The position numbers and the translations under genes were made by a program. Positions 5,313 to 56,218 of a stretch of DNA of 64,000 nucleotides are shown here, in pieces. Source of the DNA: an uncultured Chryseobacterium sp. (GTDB lineage Bacteria; Bacteroidota; Bacteroidia; Flavobacteriales; Weeksellaceae). The stretch lies in assembly GCA_913775525.1 (NCBI GenBank), contig CAJYLH010000041.1:1-64000 (forward strand), written 5' to 3'. The stretch's first letter is position 1. Every line of letters starts with the position of its first letter. A model generated the notes under the pieces. That model worked only from the letters and a program-made list of their open reading frames with translations. It had not been told where the DNA came from and did no database searches.

Positions 5313-6335
5313 TTAATATTCGAAAAGGACGCTTCCCCATGTAAATCCGCTTCCGAAAGCAGAAAGCAGGACAAGGTCTCCCCTTTTGATCTTTCCGTTT
5401 TCGATGGCCTCGCTCAAAGCGATCGGAATAGACGCGGCAGTTGTGTTTCCGTATTTCTGGATGTTGTTGAATACTTTATCATCCGGAAGCCCGAATTTCT
5501 GCTGTACAAACTGGGCAATCCTCAAATTGGCCTGATGCGGGATAAACATATCCAGGTCTTCTATTGTTTTTCCTGCTTTATCAAGCGCTTCCTGCATGGT
5601 CTCCGGAAACCGGGTTACCGCATGTTTGAAGACAAAATTCCCGTTCATGATCGGATAGACTTCTTTGGAGGTCACCTGTTCAGGCTCCCTTCTCATCCTG
5701 TCGCTCCACCCGAATTTGGACCCAGGGAACTGCGTACAGAGTTCGTCTGCATATTTGCCTTCAGAATGCATGTTTGTAGCCAGTATATCACCGGCCTGCT
5801 CATCCTGAGTGGCAGATAGGACGATGGCACCTGCACCGTCTCCGAAGATCACGGATACCCCTCTTCCTTCATTGGAAAAATCCAGCCCGAAAGAATGGAC
5901 TTCCGCGCCTACCACCAGAATATTTTTATATGTTCCGGCTTTAATGAACGCATTAGCCACACTCACCGCATACACAAATCCTGAACACTGGTTCCTTACG
6001 TCCAGCGCTCCTATGGTATCGCACCCCAGCATATCCTGGAGCAGGACGCCACAGCCCGGGAAATAATAATCCGGCGACAGGGTGGCAAAAACAATATAGT
6101 CGATATCTTTAGCCGTGAGTCCGGCATTCTCAATGGCTTTTTCTGAAGCTTTAAAACCTAAATAAGCGGTGGTTTCCTGGGAATCATTCCTGTTTTTACG
6201 GTGCCTCCTTTCTTTAATCCCGGTCCGCTCAGTGATCCATTCGTCATTGGTGGTCATTAATTCCGCTAGATCATCATTCGTAACAACATTATCCGGGACA
6301 TAGAATCCGATTCCCTTTATTGTACTTTTAACCAT
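5313..6335 (-). CDS. fabH: beta-ketoacyl-ACP synthase III
   Basis: A 340-residue thiolase-fold enzyme that condenses acetyl-CoA, or branched acyl-CoA in flavobacteria, with malonyl-ACP to start fatty-acid synthesis. The Cys-His-Asn triad is visible: Cys117 in VRNQCSGFVYA, His267 in FIPHQANLRI and Asn297 in KYGNTTAAS. The C-terminal SAFGSGFTWGSVLF is also typical. The start MVKSTIKGIGFYVPDN fits the family; an ATG 7 codons upstream is less likely. A TATATTTG -7 element lies at 6354-6361, 18 nt upstream. Here fabH is not in a fab/plsX operon; it stands alone, divergent from corA. Confidence 0.93.
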   Translation of the reverse strand: MVKSTIKGIGFYVPDNVVTNDDLAELMTTNDEWITERTGIKERRHRKNRNDSQETTAYLGFKASEKAIENAGLTAKDIDYIVFATLSPDYYFPGCGVLLQDMLGCDTIGALDVRNQCSGFVYAVSVANAFIKAGTYKNILVVGAEVHSFGLDFSNEGRGVSVIFGDGAGAIVLSATQDEQAGDILATNMHSEGKYADELCTQFPGSKFGWSDRMRREPEQVTSKEVYPIMNGNFVFKHAVTRFPETMQEALDKAGKTIEDLDMFIPHQANLRIAQFVQQKFGLPDDKVFNNIQKYGNTTAASIPIALSEAIENGKIKRGDLVLLSAFGSGFTWGSVLFEY

Positions 6336-48946: not shown

Positions 48947-50719
48947 TTATGAGTACATATCTTCAATGATATCCCTGTATTTATTCAGAACTACGTTTCT
49001 TTTTACTTTTAAGGTTGGGGTTACTTCTCCGGTGTTGATCTCGAATTCGGCAGGCATCAGTGTAAACTTCTTGACCTTTTCAAAATCAGCCAGGTTATGT
49101 TGCAGCTGTTTTGTTTTTTCTTTGTAGAAGCTGATGACCGTTTCATTTTTCACGATCTCTTTCCAGCTGGTAAACGCAATATTATTGTCCCGGATAAAGT
49201 CTTTTAGGAATTCGAAATCAGGAACAATTAAGGCAGAGACAAACTGGCGGCCTTCTGCAATAAGGATGATCTGCTGAATGAAATTGTTATTGGTCAGCAG
49301 GTTTTCAATCTGCTGCGGCGCAACATACTTCCCGTTGGAGGTTTTCATCAGGTCTTTGATGCGATCGGTGATGATCAGGTTACCATGGTCATCCCACTTC
49401 CCGGCATCGCCGGTTTTGAACCATCCGTCTTCCGTAAATGCATTCCGGGTTTCTTCAGGCCTTTGGTAATAGCCTTTCATAATCCCGTTTCCTTTCGCCT
49501 GGATTTCATCATTCTCCCCGAAACGGATCTCTACTCCCGGCAATGGCTTTCCGCTTGTCCCATGCTCGAAATGGGTCAAGGGAAAGAGCGTTAATGTAGC
49601 CGTAGTCTCTGTAAGTCCGTACCCAACGGTTATATGGATACCGGCAGATTCAAAAAACCTGGTGACTTCAGGAGAAAGGGAGGCTCCTCCGCATGGCAGA
49701 AACCATAACCGGCCGCCCATTTTTTCCTTAATGGTATTGAAGACCAGCGTATCGGCCAGTGCCTGCTTTATCTTAAGGCCTAGAGGCAGTGGTTTGCTGT
49801 TCCTCCTGAGTTCTGATGCTTCCCATCCGGTAGCCAGTGCCCAATTGAAAATTTTCTTTTTCAGCGGACTGCTTTTTTCCGCTTTGTCGAGTACTGCTGC
49901 GTAGATTTTCTGGAAAAACCTTGGTACCGAGCACATCATGGTCGGCTTTACCTCTTCCAGCGCTTTGGCAATGTTCTTGGGATCTTCCAGAAAGTAAACC
50001 CTTGCTCCGCCGTACAGGCACAGCAAGGTCCAGCTTCTTTCGAAAACATGACTCAAGGGTAAAAAGGCCAGGGAAAGTTCTTCTTCAAAATTTTTGAACG
50101 TAAAGAATTCAAAATGGGCATCCAGGGCTTTTTTAAAATTTCCGTGGGTCAGCATCACGCCTTTCGGAGTTCCGGTGGTACCGGAAGTATAAATAAGGGT
50201 CGCAACATCGTCCTCTTCCTTTTTGCAGATCTCTGCTTTAGGAGAAGCCTTTGAAATGAAATCTTCCAGGTAATAGCTGTTCAGTTCTTTTTTGATCCAG
50301 ACCGCTTTTTTGGAGACGATAATCGTCTTAAGCTCATTATCATCTTTCTGAAGGAGTTCCAGACAGGCGTCATATTGCGCCTGATTTCCTACCAGTATCA
50401 TTTTAGCTCCGGAATCCTGTATGATATATTCTGCCTGTCCGGCATTGTTGGTGGAATACACCGGTACGGAAATGGCTCCGATGACCATGGAAGCGAGGTC
50501 GAAAATCATCCACTCTGCAGAATTGTCAGAATAAATGGCAATTTTATCATCTTCCTGAATTCCTGCGTTCTTTAAAGCGTTGGCCGTTTTAAAAATAACT
50601 TCGGAAAACTTCTTCCAGCTCAGCTCTTTCCAGGGCTCTTCTTTCTTTTTAAACCCGATGGCTGATTTTACGGGATGTTTTTTTACATTATGGGCAATGA
50701 TAGCCTCTGCAAGATTCAT
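48947..50719 (-). CDS. long-chain fatty acid-CoA ligase (AMP-forming)
   Basis: A 590-residue adenylate-forming enzyme of the FAA1/FadD type that activates fatty acids to acyl-CoA. The P-loop is LIYTSGTTGTPKGVMLTHGN, then YGLTETTATLTLF, the WFKTGDAGKWDDHGN motif and the C-terminal KTSNGKYVAPQQIENLL. It starts 8 nt after the SDR gene stop. In this operon it is followed by mvaD, so expression of lipid and isoprenoid genes may be linked. Confidence 0.92.
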   Translation of the reverse strand: MNLAEAIIAHNVKKHPVKSAIGFKKKEEPWKELSWKKFSEVIFKTANALKNAGIQEDDKIAIYSDNSAEWMIFDLASMVIGAISVPVYSTNNAGQAEYIIQDSGAKMILVGNQAQYDACLELLQKDDNELKTIIVSKKAVWIKKELNSYYLEDFISKASPKAEICKKEEDDVATLIYTSGTTGTPKGVMLTHGNFKKALDAHFEFFTFKNFEEELSLAFLPLSHVFERSWTLLCLYGGARVYFLEDPKNIAKALEEVKPTMMCSVPRFFQKIYAAVLDKAEKSSPLKKKIFNWALATGWEASELRRNSKPLPLGLKIKQALADTLVFNTIKEKMGGRLWFLPCGGASLSPEVTRFFESAGIHITVGYGLTETTATLTLFPLTHFEHGTSGKPLPGVEIRFGENDEIQAKGNGIMKGYYQRPEETRNAFTEDGWFKTGDAGKWDDHGNLIITDRIKDLMKTSNGKYVAPQQIENLLTNNNFIQQIILIAEGRQFVSALIVPDFEFLKDFIRDNNIAFTSWKEIVKNETVISFYKEKTKQLQHNLADFEKVKKFTLMPAEFEINTGEVTPTLKVKRNVVLNKYRDIIEDMYS

Positions 50720-50727
50720 GGATGGGA

Positions 50728-51735
50728 TCAGCTTTTTTTATCGTTAATATAATTATTCAAATGGAATTCCAGGCTTTCGTTAACGGGGATAAAACGGAAA
50801 TTCAGCCTGTCTTCTATTTTCCGGCCGGATATGGTATTGAATGAGGTTACCGCAGCAATATTGGATTTCGTCACCATGCGTAAAGGCGGAATAAGCCATC
50901 CTAACAGAACGTTGAAAACCCGTCCTATACCAAGCTGGCTTTTCTTAAGCACAACCGGTTCTTTCAGCCCCAGCTTTTTCCTGATGGCCTTTCCTATCTC
51001 TTCATAGGTCTTCATTCCGGAAACTGCGATGAATCGCTCCCCGAATATATTTTTGTCCATCAGTTCAGCGGCTATTTCAGCGACATCACGTACGTCTACA
51101 TACGCAGATCCGCCCGGGAAGGTAAACCGGTTATTTTCAAACACCGAAAAAATCTGTCCGCTGCTCTGGCTCCAGCCTCCGCTGCCGATGATCATTCCGG
51201 GATTTATAATTGCCGCATTAAGTCCTTCTGCAGAAGCCCTCCACACCTCCATTTCTGCCATGTGCTTGGAAATGGCATAAGCAGAATGTTCTTCTTTGGA
51301 ATTGAAATCCGAATCTTCATCCAGTTCACCCTGCTCATTGAAGTTATCCAGAACCGCTACGGTACTGATGTACAGAAATTTCTTTACGGATGACTGCTCG
51401 CAGGCATACAGGATATTTGTCGTACCTTTGGTATTGGTATGGTACATTTCCTTTTCATCTTTCGGATTGAAGCCTACTTTTGCGGCACAGTGGTATACTT
51501 CGTCAACATTTTCCAAGGCATTCTGAAGTGACGTGAGATCATCAAAGTCAACCTCTACCCATTCAATAGCATTAAATACGGCATCAGGATCCTCCGTGTA
51601 AAAACGATAGGAATCTCTTACTTCCTGAAGGTTGCTCCCGGAACGTTTTGCTGCACGGACTTTCTTCCCTCTCTTAAGCAGCTCCAGAGCCACTACCCTT
51701 CCCAGAATCCCAGTTGCTCCCGTTACCAAAACCAT
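50728..51735 (-). CDS. NAD-dependent epimerase/dehydratase family (extended SDR)
   Basis: A 335-residue Rossmann-fold protein. The NAD(P)-binding motif is right at the N-terminus (MVLVTGATGILGRVVALELL). YHCAAKVGFNPKDEKEMYHTN and the catalytic YAISKHMAEMEVW (Tyr-x3-Lys) follow. It resembles the dihydroflavonol reductase/3-beta-HSD group. The substrate is unknown. I start it at 51735 because the motif normally begins there; ATGs at 51780 and 51813 would add 15 or 26 residues. It is first in the operon with an acyl-CoA ligase. Confidence 0.85.
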   Translation of the reverse strand: MVLVTGATGILGRVVALELLKRGKKVRAAKRSGSNLQEVRDSYRFYTEDPDAVFNAIEWVEVDFDDLTSLQNALENVDEVYHCAAKVGFNPKDEKEMYHTNTKGTTNILYACEQSSVKKFLYISTVAVLDNFNEQGELDEDSDFNSKEEHSAYAISKHMAEMEVWRASAEGLNAAIINPGMIIGSGGWSQSSGQIFSVFENNRFTFPGGSAYVDVRDVAEIAAELMDKNIFGERFIAVSGMKTYEEIGKAIRKKLGLKEPVVLKKSQLGIGRVFNVLLGWLIPPLRMVTKSNIAAVTSFNTISGRKIEDRLNFRFIPVNESLEFHLNNYINDKKS

Positions 51736-51908
51736 GTCTTGTCCTTTTGTGTAGTTAGATTTATTTTCCTGTTGCTGCATATCCTGTATATGCCTTTTAT
51801 GAGTTTTTACCACTGATACAATAGCCGTTCTGCAAAGTTGCGACTTTTAAAGCAAAATGCAATTGAATTTCAGCAATAATACGATTTACAACTCTCATAT
51901 CAAACAAA

Positions 51909-51928
51909 AACCTTTCCGAAGAAAGGTT
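51909..51928 (-). terminator. terminator of the graspetide operon
   Basis: An 8-bp stem AACCTTTC/GAAAGGTT closes on a four-base loop that reads TTCG on the minus strand, a very stable tetraloop. It is followed by TTTTTG. It lies 24 bp after the last ligase gene and ends the cluster. Confidence 0.82.
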
Positions 51929-51951
51929 ATATCATAGAAGAGATCCGTAAG

Positions 51952-52959
51952 TTAAGCTAAGACACTGTTATTGCGCCTCGGAGCCTTATCGCAGAGAAGA
52001 TCGGCGATGCTTTTGGAGATCAGGTTTCCATCGGTAAGATTATCCAGCCAGAAAAATTCCCCGGCTGCATTGATTTCTATAAAATAATACTCGTCTTCAG
52101 GGGTAAGAATGATATCAATAGCTCCGTAATCCACATGGTACACATCCAGAAGTTCGAGCAGCTTCCGCTCAATTTCCCGTGGAAGCTGTGTTTCCACCCA
52201 CTGGTCGATGAGATTAAGCCCGTCTTTTCTCCAGTCGACTTTAGCGGCCTCAGATTTTTGGGAATCTATTTCAAAGGCATAGATATCCTGCCCTACCACA
52301 GTTACGCGGAGCTCTTTTTTCTTCTCCAGGCGGGTCTGGAACTGCATGGGGCAGTACTGCAGCGAATCGAGCTCTTCAAGTTTATCTTTATCGATCACGT
52401 TGGTAAACACCACATTTTCAACTCCGTCCTCATAAATAGCAAATCCCGTCTGCATCTTCCCGATGACATTTTTATGTTTAAGGATAAACTGCCTGGCCTG
52501 CTCCGGATTGTTCGTCATGCAGGTTTCTGGAATTTTAAGCCCTATCTTCTCTGCGATTTTCAGCTGTTCTTCCTTGCTGTCCAGCCTTCTGTACACACTT
52601 GGCTTACCCAGCGAGTACGCATCTATGGATTCCAGGAAGCCAAAAAGAGTATTGCGGATTTCACCCATGGCTGCGCCATAAAATTTGGCGTCCATCTCCT
52701 CTTTCAGGCCGTTACCGATATTATAGGCTCTTCTGTACCACACGGCAGCAATATCATCCAGGCGGTACTTTGCTTCAGCAGTTTCAAGGATGCTGATCCA
52801 GCTTCCGTCTTCAAAAGCGGTAGTCAGCCTGTTTTGCATCGGATAAAGGTCTACATCAAAACGGATGACCTCAAAGCCGTTATGTTCTATATATTCTGTT
52901 ACTTTTTCTATGGAAAAATTATCTCCCGTATGGGTAATGATTAAAATTTTGTTATTCAT
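51952..52959 (-). CDS. MdnC/MvdD-type ATP-grasp graspetide ligase
   Basis: A 335-residue ATP-grasp enzyme that, by family, forms omega-ester (lactone) bonds between Thr/Ser and Asp/Glu side chains of a microviridin-type precursor. It matches the remembered MdnC pattern in order: ILIITHTGDNFSIEKVTEYI, DIAAVWYRRA, TLFGFLESID, TNNPEQARQFI, FAIYEDG with VVFTN, CPMQFQ, KELRVTVVG, YGAIDIILTP, and EINAAGEFFWL with metal-binding Glu295/Asn297. The start at 52959 overlaps the upstream ligase stop by 8 nt (ATGAATAA), implying translational coupling. A longer frame to 53088 only reads out of phase through the upstream gene. Confidence 0.9.
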   Translation of the reverse strand: MNNKILIITHTGDNFSIEKVTEYIEHNGFEVIRFDVDLYPMQNRLTTAFEDGSWISILETAEAKYRLDDIAAVWYRRAYNIGNGLKEEMDAKFYGAAMGEIRNTLFGFLESIDAYSLGKPSVYRRLDSKEEQLKIAEKIGLKIPETCMTNNPEQARQFILKHKNVIGKMQTGFAIYEDGVENVVFTNVIDKDKLEELDSLQYCPMQFQTRLEKKKELRVTVVGQDIYAFEIDSQKSEAAKVDWRKDGLNLIDQWVETQLPREIERKLLELLDVYHVDYGAIDIILTPEDEYYFIEINAAGEFFWLDNLTDGNLISKSIADLLCDKAPRRNNSVLA

Positions 52960-53908
52960 GGATGTTGATTCTTTTGATAAGGTAATCGGCAATGGTTTCC
53001 GCAATAGGGAAATTAAGTTCTTTCTGCAGCATTCCCCATTCTCCCTGAGGGTTGACCTCCAGGAAATAATAATTCCCGTCTTTTCCACGGATCATATCTA
53101 TTGCTCCTAGGCAAAGCCCCATTTCGCGCATCATGGCAGAAAGGTTCCGGCATATATCTTCTGGCAGTTCATAAGCCGACCAGGAATAATGGCTGTTGGC
53201 AATGCGCCAGTCAGCATTTTCACTGTTGTTGATTTTACCGGTGAAAAATGCTCCGTCCACATAAATAATCCTCAGCTCATATGATTTTTCTATGTAGGGC
53301 TGAAAGATCATTGGGCAATACGCAATGTCTCCAATACTTTCAAGACTATCTTCTTCAATAATCATCGTAGAAAGCATATGTTCTCCGGCCATGGATTTTG
53401 ACATCACACCATGCAGTTTGGCCACTGCCTTTCCATTACAATACTGGTAAAAAAATGATTTTATCTTCTCAGCGTCATTGGAAAAAAGGGTTTCCGGGAC
53501 GCACAGATGATTCTTTCGGGCTGTCCTAAGCTGGTGTATCTTATTGCCGTCAATTTTCTTTTCAGCCTCATAAGGATTGATCCAGGGAAGATGTTCCAGT
53601 GTAGTAATCAAATTGTATCTCAGGCAGCTGTATTCATTGATAAAGATCCGATGATAGTCTTCGTCCATGTCTTCAGGCACTGTTATGCTCCAGGCTTTCC
53701 GGTTCCACACTCCCTTGATGTCGGAAGAGGAAACCATATTGCCGTGTTCATCAGTTAATTCAAATGAATCCTGGTCAATGCTGATTTTCTGAAGATGGTT
53801 GATATGATCGGAATTAAGCCTGAAAAAAGGGATATCTTTAGACTTCAGGTATGCAGAGAAAAGATCGACGTTGTAATAGTCGCCGGAGTGGGTAATGCAG
53901 AGGATCAT
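52952..53908 (-). CDS. MdnB/MvdC-type ATP-grasp graspetide ligase
   Basis: A 318-residue ATP-grasp enzyme of the MdnB type, expected to close the omega-amide bond between the core Lys and an acidic side chain after the esters are made. Recognisable segments are ILCITHSGDYYNVDLF, IKGVWNRKAW, KIHQLRTARKNHLCVPETLF, CPMIFQPYIEKSYELRIIYV, LGAIDMIRGKDGNYYF and EVNPQGEWGML (metal-binding Glu284/Asn286). The GEWGML ending separates it from the MdnC type (GEFFWL). It starts 13 nt after the T run of the precursor terminator and overlaps the next ligase gene by 8 nt. Confidence 0.9.
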   Translation of the reverse strand: MILCITHSGDYYNVDLFSAYLKSKDIPFFRLNSDHINHLQKISIDQDSFELTDEHGNMVSSSDIKGVWNRKAWSITVPEDMDEDYHRIFINEYSCLRYNLITTLEHLPWINPYEAEKKIDGNKIHQLRTARKNHLCVPETLFSNDAEKIKSFFYQYCNGKAVAKLHGVMSKSMAGEHMLSTMIIEEDSLESIGDIAYCPMIFQPYIEKSYELRIIYVDGAFFTGKINNSENADWRIANSHYSWSAYELPEDICRNLSAMMREMGLCLGAIDMIRGKDGNYYFLEVNPQGEWGMLQKELNFPIAETIADYLIKRINIHE

Positions 53909-53920
53909 GTTGCCGTTGTT

Positions 53921-53956
53921 ATTAAAAAAAGGAAACTTAATGGATAAGTTTCCTTT
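53921..53956 (-). terminator. terminator between precursor and ligase genes
   Basis: A perfect 12-bp stem (AAAGGAAACTTA, 53928-53939, with 53945-53956) has a 5-nt loop. On the minus strand it is followed by seven T and then, 13 nt on, by the MdnB-type start codon. It should stop most precursor transcripts and let only a fraction read into the ligase genes. Confidence 0.85.
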
Positions 53957-53996
53957 GATCTGGTTTATTCAGATGATCAATAAATGATCTTCTTAA

Positions 53997-54215
53997 TTAT
54001 ACATAAAGTGCATCATCATCACCGTCTGAAGGGTACTTCATGGTGTGAGCCATGTCATCTTTAGGTGACGTTACTCCGTCTACAGAAGGTTTTGTTACGA
54101 CATCCCTTTCCGGAATGCTGACGTCTGTTCCTCCTTTTACCGTTTCAGGATCTTTGATCTGCTTCTCAAGAAATGAGGCAAAAAACGGCTTTTTCTTTGA
54201 ATTTTTGTTTTTCAT
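53997..54215 (-). CDS. microviridin-type graspetide precursor 1
   Basis: A 72-residue precursor. The leader holds the ligase-binding helix KKPFFASFLEKQIKDPETVK (8-27) and a Gly-Gly at 28-29. After a 28-residue linker comes the core TMKYPSDGDDD (58-68). By homology, esters should link Thr58-Asp64 and Ser63-Asp66, and an amide Lys60-Asp67. ALYV follows. The linker contains VTKPSVDGVTSPKDD, of which VTSPxxD is shared with precursor 2 and might be another modification site. It is nearest to the ligases and is followed by a terminator. Confidence 0.92.
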   Translation of the reverse strand: MKNKNSKKKPFFASFLEKQIKDPETVKGGTDVSIPERDVVTKPSVDGVTSPKDDMAHTMKYPSDGDDDALYV

Positions 54216-54270
54216 AATGTTTTGATTTGATGGGTTTGAATTGATTGATTTAATTTGATAGATAGTTTTC

Positions 54271-54483
54271 TTAAAGGTCTATCTCTCCTGATTCATCGCT
54301 GTCCGAAGGATATTTCATCGATACAGTATCATTTCCCGGGCTGGTAACATCGTCGTTCTGGACGCCCGTTACTTGATCTTTCAATACTCCGGTCCCGGAG
54401 CCTCCCTTAATGGTTTCAGGGTCTTTTACCTGCTTTTCAAGAAACGAGGCAAAAAATGGTTTTTTTAGTTTTTTTCCTTTCAT
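54271..54483 (-). CDS. microviridin-type graspetide precursor 2
   Basis: A 70-residue precursor, paralogous to the one at 53997. The leader KKPFFASFLEKQVKDPETIK (7-26) and Gly-Gly (27-28) are nearly identical. The core is SMKYPSDSDES (55-65), with Ser instead of Thr at the first ester position and Glu64 as probable lactam partner of Lys57. A VTSPGND segment (46-52) precedes the core. The start at 54483 aligns with precursor 1; an ATG 6 codons earlier is open. It is the first gene of the cluster. Confidence 0.92.
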   Translation of the reverse strand: MKGKKLKKPFFASFLEKQVKDPETIKGGSGTGVLKDQVTGVQNDDVTSPGNDTVSMKYPSDSDESGEIDL

Positions 54484-54510
54484 GATATTACATTTTATCA
54501 TTTGAAGGAC

Positions 54511-54546
54511 CTAATATACAAAATTTTCAATATCGCACGAAGCAAA
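54511..54546 (-). promoter_or_regulatory. possible promoter of the graspetide operon
   Basis: On the minus strand, TATATTAG (54518-54511) is one base off TAnnTTTG and lies 27 nt before the precursor 2 ATG. TTTG (54546-54543) lies 24 bp further upstream, slightly longer than the usual spacing. Confidence 0.4.
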
Positions 54547-54596
54547 CCTTTATTTTAATATAATTTTAACTAAATTTAATAAAAACAAGAATAAAT

Positions 54597-55376
54597 TTAA
54601 TTTAGATCCAAAAATTCTTTCACTGCCATACCAAAATCTGCCGGATTATCGGCCTGTACCCAGTGAGCCGCATTTTTAATGGTTATCACCTTAGCTTTAG
54701 GAAATTGCTGCCTGATGGCAAACTCATCCTGCGGTAGGATATAATTGGATTTCTCACCGGCAATAAACAGGGTCTCTCCGTTGAAAACGCCAAACTTTAT
54801 GGCATTGGAAACAAAATCATTGTATTTTTCTGACAGTGTTTTAAGGTTGAACCTCCAGTTCAGTTTCTTGTCTTCATTCCAGTACAGGTTTTTTGTCAGG
54901 AACTGTATGGTTGATTTTTCAGGAATATACCGGCTCAGGACCTCCTCAACTTCCGTTCTGGATGTTACCGTATTGAAATCAACACTTTCCAGTGCCTTAA
55001 TGATTCCCTGATGATGCGGCGGGTAGGCTTTAGGAGCAATATCCACTACAATCAGCTTTTCAACCATCTCGGGATAGCGGATGGCAAACTGCATTACAGC
55101 CTTTCCGCCCAGTGAATGCCCTAAAACATGCGCCTTATCTATTCCGTAATGATTCATGTAGGCTATAATATCGCCGGCAAGATCATCATGGGACATATTT
55201 TCAGAATGAAAGCTTCGCCCATGATTTCTGAGGTCAATCAGATGGACAGGCAGCAGTTCTCCCATTTCTTTTCCGAAACTCCCCCAATTATCCAGCATGC
55301 CGAAAAGCCCGTGGAATACAAGAAGAGGAGTTGAAGTTAATTGTTCACCGAATATTTTTGAATGTAGAATTTCCAT
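54597..55376 (-). CDS. alpha/beta-hydrolase (YbfF-type esterase)
   Basis: A 259-residue alpha/beta-hydrolase fold protein. The oxyanion region is LVFHGLFGMLDNWGSFGKEM, the nucleophile elbow is VLGHSLGGKAVMQF (GHSLGG, Ser), and the catalytic His is in NAAHWVQADNP. The LRNHGRSFHSENMSHDDLA segment is typical of the YbfF/BioH-like group. The natural substrate is unknown. It has no signal peptide. It is separated from the graspetide genes by 113 bp and is probably a separate unit. Confidence 0.9.
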   Translation of the reverse strand: MEILHSKIFGEQLTSTPLLVFHGLFGMLDNWGSFGKEMGELLPVHLIDLRNHGRSFHSENMSHDDLAGDIIAYMNHYGIDKAHVLGHSLGGKAVMQFAIRYPEMVEKLIVVDIAPKAYPPHHQGIIKALESVDFNTVTSRTEVEEVLSRYIPEKSTIQFLTKNLYWNEDKKLNWRFNLKTLSEKYNDFVSNAIKFGVFNGETLFIAGEKSNYILPQDEFAIRQQFPKAKVITIKNAAHWVQADNPADFGMAVKEFLDLN

Positions 55377-55401
55377 GATGTGCTGTCAAGATGTTAAGTT
55401 T

Positions 55402-55469
55402 AGATGTCAGATATAAGATTTTAGATGTTAGGTATTAGAGTTCTGTCTGATGTCTGATATCTGACATCT
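55402..55469. repeat. intergenic inverted repeat and AGATGTTAGATGT-like tract
   Basis: AGATGTCAGATAT (55402-55414) and its exact reverse complement (55457-55469) enclose further variants such as TTAGATGTTAGG and TCTGATGTCTGATATC. The whole 55385-55495 gap is built of these degenerate words. It resembles the dispersed intergenic repeats seen in Chryseobacterium genomes. It is not CRISPR: there are no uniform repeats or spacers. Confidence 0.65.
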
Positions 55470-55498
55470 TATATAAAACATCCGACATTTACTCTTCT

Positions 55499-56218
55499 CT
55501 ACCACCTGGCAAGCCTTTTCAGGTAAGACTGCACCGTATTTTCCATTCCCATATATAACGCTTCCGAAATCAGCGCATGTCCTATGGATACTTCCAGCAG
55601 GTTCGGGATGTGGTCTGAGAAATACTTAAGATTGTCCAGGCTTAGGTCATGTCCGGCATTGATGCCCAATCCATATTCTGAAGCGGCCACTGCCGTATCA
55701 TAATACGGTCGTATTGCCTGCTCTTTATTGATTGAATAATCCCTTGCGTAGGCTTCCGTATACAGTTCAATCCTGTCAGTCCCGGTTTTGGCGGCATATT
55801 CTACCATTTCCGGGTTCGGATCCAGGAAAATAGATGTTCTGATGCCTGCATTTTTAAATTCCGCAATGATTTCGGTAAGGAAGTCCAGATGCTTTTTGGT
55901 ATCCCATCCGGCATTGGAAGTAATCGCATCATCCGCATCAGGCACCAGAGTAACCTGTTCAGGCTTTACTTCCAGAACCATATCAATAAACGGGCGGTGA
56001 GGATTGCCTTCAATATTGAATTCCGTAGTTACCAAAGGTTTCAGGTCATAAACATCCTTCCTGGTAATATGCCTTTCATCCGGTCTTGGATGAATGGTGA
56101 TTCCATGGGCCCCGAATTCCTGTATTTTCACGGCAGCTTCTGTCACACTGGGAGTATCTCCCCCTCTTGCATTTCTTATGGTTGCAATTTTATTGATGTT
56201 TACGCTTAACTTTGTCAT
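55499..56218 (-). CDS. pdxJ: pyridoxine 5'-phosphate synthase
   Basis: A 239-residue TIM-barrel enzyme that makes pyridoxine 5'-phosphate from deoxyxylulose 5-phosphate and 3-amino-2-oxopropyl phosphate. It starts TKLSVNINKIATIRNARGGD and contains HGITIHPRPDERHI, VTLVPDADDAITSNAG and INAGHDLSLDNLKYF, all PdxJ-specific. The start at 56218 is 4 nt after TATTTTTG on the minus strand. The T-rich tail of the upstream terminator merges with that promoter element. Confidence 0.95.
   Translation of the reverse strand: MTKLSVNINKIATIRNARGGDTPSVTEAAVKIQEFGAHGITIHPRPDERHITRKDVYDLKPLVTTEFNIEGNPHRPFIDMVLEVKPEQVTLVPDADDAITSNAGWDTKKHLDFLTEIIAEFKNAGIRTSIFLDPNPEMVEYAAKTGTDRIELYTEAYARDYSINKEQAIRPYYDTAVAASEYGLGINAGHDLSLDNLKYFSDHIPNLLEVSIGHALISEALYMGMENTVQSYLKRLARW

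Follow-up and report, generated by a model that had tools for sequence, protein, structure and literature searches.

Chryseoviridin loci of Chryseobacterium were described, in passages of PMC8939145, as often comprising tandem precursor genes and the genes of CdnB and CdnC, with a flanking alpha/beta hydrolase and epimerase; the chryseoviridin motif was given there as TxxxxDxxxTxKxPSDxD[DE], the variable part carrying additional linkages. We analyzed a stretch of 64,000 nucleotides from an uncultured Chryseobacterium sp. (assembly GCA_913775525.1, contig CAJYLH010000041.1, positions 1 to 64,000; hereafter the window), and four of its genes, at 51952–54483, very probably constitute a chryseoviridin (cdn) graspetide operon that is a real new member of this published system. 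All four were located on the minus strand, and the interval extended from the ATG of the first precursor gene, P1, to the stop of the second ligase gene:

54271–54483, minus strand: precursor P1, 70 amino acids, cdnA-type; first gene in transcription order
53997–54215, minus strand: precursor P2, 72 amino acids, cdnA-type; ortholog of the last precursor in other cdn loci
52952–53908, minus strand: CdnB, MdnB/MvdC-type ATP-grasp ligase (GEWGML), 318 amino acids; predicted omega-amide (Lys) former
51952–52959, minus strand: CdnC, MdnC/MvdD-type ATP-grasp ligase (AVWYRR/GEFFWL), 335 amino acids; predicted omega-ester former for simple rings and core

The P1/P2 gap was 55 base pairs (bp), the gap between P2 and the ligases was 88 bp, and the two ligase genes overlapped by 8 bp. 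The order promoter, P1, P2, hairpin, cdnB, cdnC, terminator is held with equally high confidence, as part of the same joint judgment on the whole operon. A preliminary description of this DNA had reported two tandem precursors sharing PFFASFLEKQ, with an MdnB-type and an MdnC-type ligase on the same strand, and the open reading frames and family matches confirmed this arrangement. Its residue numbers were also correct; its precursor 1 corresponds to P2 (54215–53997, second transcribed) and its precursor 2 to P1 (54483–54271).

The best family match of CdnB was TIGR04185 (MvdC; 1.2e-119), and that of CdnC was TIGR04184 (MvdD; 5.4e-142). Among solved proteins, the best relative of CdnB by sequence was AMdnB (PDB 7m4s, 8.7e-59), and that of CdnC was PDB 7mgv, itself named 'CdnC'. 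Locus L120 of C. gregarium DSM 19109 encodes a protein identical to 7mgv across all 332 aligned residues, and the CdnC of the window showed 79% identity (262/332) with this C. gregarium CdnC. The two flanking genes of the window also matched the description of cdn loci in the passages of PMC8939145:

54597–55376: alpha/beta hydrolase, flanking
50728–51813: epimerase, flanking

The remark about chryseoviridins in the preliminary description proved to be an exact identity, both in CdnC and in the published flanks. A CdnC ortholog was found in 32 of 36 same-genus genomes (the window's own included), one of them interrupted by a contig end. In the four genomes without CdnC (G001, G018, G028, and G031), the hydrolase and epimerase matches were only 238–466 bp apart, and the operon therefore behaves as a cassette that is present or absent at one site. 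In comparisons with loci L062, L064, L068, and L120, where synonymous differences (pS) were near saturation, the ratio of nonsynonymous to synonymous differences (pN/pS) was 0.11–0.15 for cdnC, 0.22–0.23 for cdnB, and 0.18–0.29 for P2. These values, well below 1, indicated that the genes are kept.

Both precursors matched NF033738 (NCBIfam, microviridin/marinostatin precursor; P2 5.2e-21, P1 1.8e-17) and Pfam Inhibitor_I10 (PF12559; P2 7.4e-9, P1 5.4e-6), in each case over the cut-off, and they were the only NF033738 matches genome-wide at E values up to 0.001; a PDB search with P2 gave no match of note. Together with the TIGR04185 and TIGR04184 matches, these results agreed with the microviridin-like graspetide class and the two ligase types named in the preliminary description. 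For comparison, precursors were extracted from 81 loci (the window and 80 named loci) by a leader-motif script, which misses precursors with a changed leader. The leader motifs of the two window precursors were as follows:

54430–54459, minus strand: P1 leader motif PFFASFLEKQ; KGG, the cleavage motif, comes next at residues 26–28
54159–54188, minus strand: P2 leader motif PFFASFLEKQ; KGG, the cleavage motif, comes next at residues 27–29

This motif, identical in P1 and P2, was exact in 155 of 209 distinct precursors, the remainder carrying variants. In the last precursors of 69 loci, which are the P2 orthologs, the leader residues P, F, F, A, L, E, and Q and both glycines were invariant (69/69). 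In the comparison with the 80 named loci, P2 was 80–82% identical to its six nearest relatives, all of which occupy the second place in a pair of precursors, and P1 was 64–70% identical to its own six nearest relatives, so that the earlier suggestion of possibly new products holds at the sequence level. In L064 (C. defluvii), an apparent partial further precursor, with leader and GG but no KYPSD core, lay no more than 120 bp ahead of the first precursor extracted there; it looks like a truncated or decayed copy, which the script had not counted.

Between the GG motif and the microviridin-like core, each window precursor contained three [TS]-x4-D units, of which the first unit of P2 uses serine:

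54328–54393, minus strand: P1 upstream ring units T31-D36, T39-D44, and T47-D52 (TGVLKD, TGVQND, TSPGND), predicted
54054–54119, minus strand: P2 upstream ring units S33-D38, T41-D46, and T49-D54 (SIPERD, TKPSVD, TSPKDD), predicted

These units were analyzed in 152 distinct precursors from the window and loci L062–L129, after 10 exact duplicates had been dropped; the GG motif was present in all 152. In the segment from GG to the core, threonine was followed by aspartate at an offset of five residues 486 times, compared with 94.6 ± 7.7 in shuffles. Among the other offsets from 1 to 12, offset 4 was the most frequent (104 vs 97.1), and offset 12 was mildly raised (93 vs 68.9 ± 7.6). Non-overlapping [TS]-x4-[DE] units numbered two in 15 precursors, three in 70, and four in 67. 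In a larger set, to which other same-genus genomes had been added and from which L130–L141 were left out, neighboring donors were spaced by 8 residues (441 cases) or 9 residues (156 cases) in 597 of 624 spacings. Among the 69 P2 orthologs, the three unit donors were threonine or serine in 63, 64, and 68, and the three unit acceptors were aspartate in 61, 63, and 68, while the residues between donor and acceptor were more variable. The acceptor of the third P2 unit is likely D54 rather than D53, judging from the conservation of aspartate at these positions (68 vs 34 of 69). Because the units are far above chance and their residues are conserved in P2 orthologs, six rings per precursor (minus 108 Da) are the best prediction, compared with the three (minus 54 Da) predicted earlier. 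With six losses of 18.011 Da each, the calculated mass of the peptide released after GG would fall from 4355.971 to 4247.908 for P1 and from 4665.174 to 4557.110 for P2. The preliminary assignment of a tricyclic C-terminal core was itself supported by family and conservation; its total of three rings gave way to about six. According to a 2021 JACS paper on CdnC, simple and bicyclic ester rings are reportedly both installed by CdnC on CdnA3. In Flavobacterium, Taibaiella, and Sinomicrobium (L130–L133, L137, and L139), we observed precursors with two or three cores of the K-x-PSD type, and in several of these precursors a TxxxxD-like unit separated the cores, whereas the Chryseobacterium precursors had simple units only, ahead of a single core; the simple rings may derive from cores by reduction, or the derivation may have run the other way.

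The core of each window precursor was assigned as follows:

54292–54321, minus strand: P1 core SMKYPSDSDE (S55-D61, S60-D63, and K57-E64 predicted); family match, with serine replacing the first threonine
54015–54044, minus strand: P2 core TMKYPSDGDD (T58-D64, S63-D66, and K60-D67 predicted); family match and conservation

The second precursor of the C. gregarium locus L120 has the same core start as P1. T58, K60, P62, S63, D64, and D66 were invariant in the last precursors (69/69), and position 67 was aspartate in 62 and glutamate in 7. Among 189 Chryseobacterium-type cores, those with lysine kept aspartate or glutamate at the last acidic position without exception (183/183), and the six with arginine all had alanine there. 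This co-variation fits a lysine-to-acid amide made by CdnB.

Downstream of P2, a hairpin was found in the gap before cdnB:

53928–53956, minus strand: intrinsic-terminator-like hairpin with a 12 bp stem and U-run in the P2/cdnB gap; probable attenuator

With a scan for stems of at least 7 pairs and at most 1 mismatch, then 5 or more T within 8 bases, a hairpin was found in the corresponding gap of 80 loci; that of L127 was recognized by its sequence, which gave 81 of 81, and that of L139 was weak (7 pairs). Under a stricter requirement for nine pairs, 78 of 79 precursor/ligase gaps (lengths 31–199; L127 and L108 dropped) were positive against a shuffle mean of 5.65 (max 8; 20 shuffles), compared with 2 of 98 precursor/precursor gaps. 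The exact stem pattern has a single occurrence in the 4.1 Mb genome. It was found in 19 of 36 genomes searched, at a single place in each and always beside cdnB by coordinates; by group, these were 19 of 20 cdn-bearing same-genus genomes (G005 being without it), 0 of 2 cdn-free genomes, and 0 of 14 genomes of other genera. The RNA fold of the P2/cdnB gap was −21.8 kcal/mol (z −5.6). In the scan that first showed the window hairpin, terminator-like sites in general numbered 6 against 3.0 expected.

The stem was parsed in 67 of 69 loci, the other two (L125 and L126) carrying a variant stem. Its inner nine pairs (window 53931–53953) were almost invariant in Chryseobacterium, in a parse whose pattern required most of those letters. 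Pair 10 was A-T in 41 and G-C in 23 of the 67, and pair 11 was A-T in 43, G-T in 20, and G-C in 4. The loops varied in length and sequence (29 distinct among 67 loci), and 12 loci of other genera had a hairpin at the same place with stems unlike that of Chryseobacterium. The inner nine pairs are conserved in sequence genus-wide despite the varied loops, and a plain terminator would not need such conservation. The hairpin is probably an attenuator that holds ligase transcripts under precursor transcripts and so gives an excess of precursor; internal terminators that set stoichiometry have a reported precedent in clostridia (PMC9045158). No earlier account of a precursor/ligase hairpin was found in a shallow search of open-licence literature on terminators in operons for microviridins or other ribosomally synthesized and post-translationally modified peptides. 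In PMC8939145, the words terminator, intergenic, and promoter were absent, and the passages with hairpin or transcri described no such element. We tentatively regard as possible, though far less secure than the identity of the operon, the combination of six-ring products, made of three simple ester rings and a tricyclic cap, with a dedicated single-site hairpin that fixes the precursor:ligase ratio, is conserved in position across genera, and has a near-invariant stem suggesting a second role beyond termination.

Signals at the two ends of the operon were as follows:

54511–54518, minus strand: promoter-like element TATATTAG (TAnnTTAG), with the P1 start codon 35 bp downstream
51909–51928, minus strand: intrinsic terminator at the operon end, with an 8 bp stem, UUCG loop, and U-run; fold z −1.9 for the whole stretch, which is modest

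TAnnTTAG occurred in the 120 bp preceding the first extracted precursor at 41 of 69 loci (the window and L062–L129; shuffle mean 4.1, max 10), a post hoc count since the pattern had been chosen after inspection of the sequences. Its distance to the ATG was mostly 35–37, with a few matches at other positions, and it was absent from all 93 stretches upstream of later precursors. The standard Bacteroidetes promoter (TTTG or TTG, then TAnnTTTG) was found upstream of the first precursor in 0 of 69 loci, and sigma-70-like sites were at chance level (7 vs 6.7). A loose search, run without a shuffle control, gave a hairpin (stem of at least 7) beyond the 3' end of cdnC at 75 of the 81 loci. The hairpins counted ahead of the first precursor (43 of 81), some of which may be terminators of the hydrolase gene preceding it, were set aside. 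Rfam over 50500–55500 gave nothing relevant, its one miRNA match being far under the gathering score.

Regarding export, a C39-peptidase ATP-binding cassette (ABC) transporter directly followed cdnC in 5 of the 80 named loci (L121, L123, L124, L125, and L126, from position 6015 or 6016), as detected by tblastn with one transporter query in the flanks of the loci only, so that more distant transporters could be missed. This arrangement, unlike that of the window, occurred in one group of Chryseobacterium species. The window's genome had a single C39 match, on contig C2 (19001–19366) and apart from the cdn contig; the protein showed 46% identity with the cdnC-adjacent transporter over 721 aligned residues, and its gene adjoined VKOR/thioredoxin and HlyD-type genes. 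This transporter is the strongest candidate for the exporter but is unlikely to serve cdn exclusively, because the cdn-free genomes G001 and G018 also have one C39 match each.

From the observed genes, their orthology, and the conservation of ring residues and hairpin, we infer the following course of bond formation, leader cleavage, export, attenuation, and inhibition. The leader motif PFFASFLEKQ would present each precursor to the ligases. CdnC would form the omega-esters, namely three six-residue Thr/Ser-to-Asp rings per precursor and two overlapping core esters, and CdnB would close the core amide from lysine to aspartate or glutamate. Cleavage after KGG would release the ringed peptide, with its 42 or 43 residues beyond GG, for export, probably through the one ABC transporter of the C39 type in the genome, whose gene lies elsewhere, and the product is expected to be a secreted serine-protease inhibitor. 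By analogy with microviridins and marinostatin, methionine ahead of lysine would predict a preference of the subtilisin/elastase type. The P2/cdnB hairpin would end most transcripts, leaving substrate peptides in excess over enzymes.

If the locus encoded a plain microviridin, the C-terminal core alone would be cyclized, giving three rings, and the segment from GG to the core would be a spacer. The core is indeed the best-conserved region outside the leader, and tricyclic inhibitors give the NCBIfam precursor model its name. However, T-to-D pairs at offset five (486 vs 95 expected), a donor spacing of 8 or 9 residues in 597 of 624 cases, and unit donors and acceptors kept in 61–68 of 69 P2 orthologs with more variable residues between them all argue against a spacer, as does the motif TxxxxDxxxTxKxPSDxD[DE], with its further linkages in the variable part, in the passages of PMC8939145. 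We consider a plain microviridin very improbable, and the three-ring-only reading was rejected on the ring-unit statistics. Still more remote, and in our view barely credible, is a degenerate or silent locus whose genes are remnants giving no product in the strain; the operon has no exporter and the cassette is missing from 4 of 36 same-genus genomes, but all four frames are open, leader and ring residues are intact, pN/pS is well under 1, and the common promoter-like element and the terminator are present. Other points do weigh against a six-ring chryseoviridin operon. Both ligases scored slightly under the equivalog cut-offs (TIGR04185, 399.2 of 425 bits; TIGR04184, 472.6 of 475), and the operon contains neither an exporter nor a peptidase gene. 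Passages of PMC8939145 assign three linkages to the motif TxxxxDxxxTxKxPSDxD[DE], with the last simple unit included, and by this linkage count there would be five rings rather than six if the lysine amide were not formed. The action of CdnB on lysine is suggested by homology and one co-variation, the six Arg/Ala cores may possibly descend from one change, and the 44 cores of Flavobacterium, Taibaiella, and Sinomicrobium all have lysine, one of them (L140) with alanine at the last acid. The attenuator, too, could be a 3'-end stabilizer or processing site.

This last alternative, that the hairpin at 53956–53928 is an mRNA processing or stabilizing element or a protein-binding site and not an attenuator, draws on the inner nine pairs, which in Chryseobacterium keep their sequence and not pairing alone; this exceeds the needs of termination alone. 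The parsing pattern did require most of those letters, but only 2 of 69 loci escaped it. On the other hand, at least 5 T in 8 bases followed the hairpin in the 80 scored loci, 29 distinct loops in 67 loci speak against a fixed two-site DNA operator, and other stems occupied the same place in 12 loci of other genera. We regard this alternative as unlikely, though clearly less so than a plain microviridin, and the hairpin as a probable attenuator. In practice, the choice between six and three rings (minus 108 vs minus 54 Da) decides whether a mass-spectrometry search finds the product. The analysis also offers natural co-variation evidence for the lysine amide, a candidate for the exporter, and a conserved hairpin between precursor and ligase genes, which could be put to the test and employed in heterologous expression of such clusters.

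Outside the cdn locus, the same genome (G000) had four further grasp-with-spasm-type ATP-grasp peptide maturases (L155–L158), three of them above the family cut-off:

contig C36, 27400–28296: grasp-with-spasm-type ATP-grasp maturase
contig C44, 116569–117462: grasp-with-spasm-type ATP-grasp maturase
contig C40, 95321–96265: grasp-with-spasm-type ATP-grasp maturase
contig C9, 25647–26549: grasp-with-spasm-type ATP-grasp maturase

Among known systems, the class III Bacteroidetes precursors (chitinoviridins), as described in passages of PMC13039773, have a long core with a microviridin-like C terminus and a GG motif, as in the window. The class I microviridins defined there have one short core, mostly without GG, whereas the window precursors have GG and three extra units. 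The cyanobacterial microviridins (MdnA/B/C, MvdE/C/D) share with the window the leader motif, the TxKYPSD core, and the paired ligases; unlike them, the window has extra ring units before the core and a GG motif, and none of its four operon genes encodes an acetyltransferase. The fifth residue of the PFFARFL motif is serine in the window and arginine in cyanobacterial microviridins. NF033738, which matches both window precursors, is named for microviridin and marinostatin. Like SMKYPSDSDE of P1, the marinostatin core places methionine ahead of the basic residue and has two esters; arginine stands there instead of the amide-forming lysine. The chryseoviridin system of C. gregarium DSM 19109 is like the window in gene set, flanks, leader motif, and [TS]-x4-D units before a microviridin-like core. 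It has four precursors, with 4, 3, 4, and 3 upstream units, compared with two precursors of three units each in the window, and its third gene, which by gene order would be the characterized CdnA3, has a long proline-rich tail that neither window precursor has. To this published system, the present locus adds the correction from three to six rings, the co-variation of lysine and acid, and the conserved precursor/ligase hairpin.

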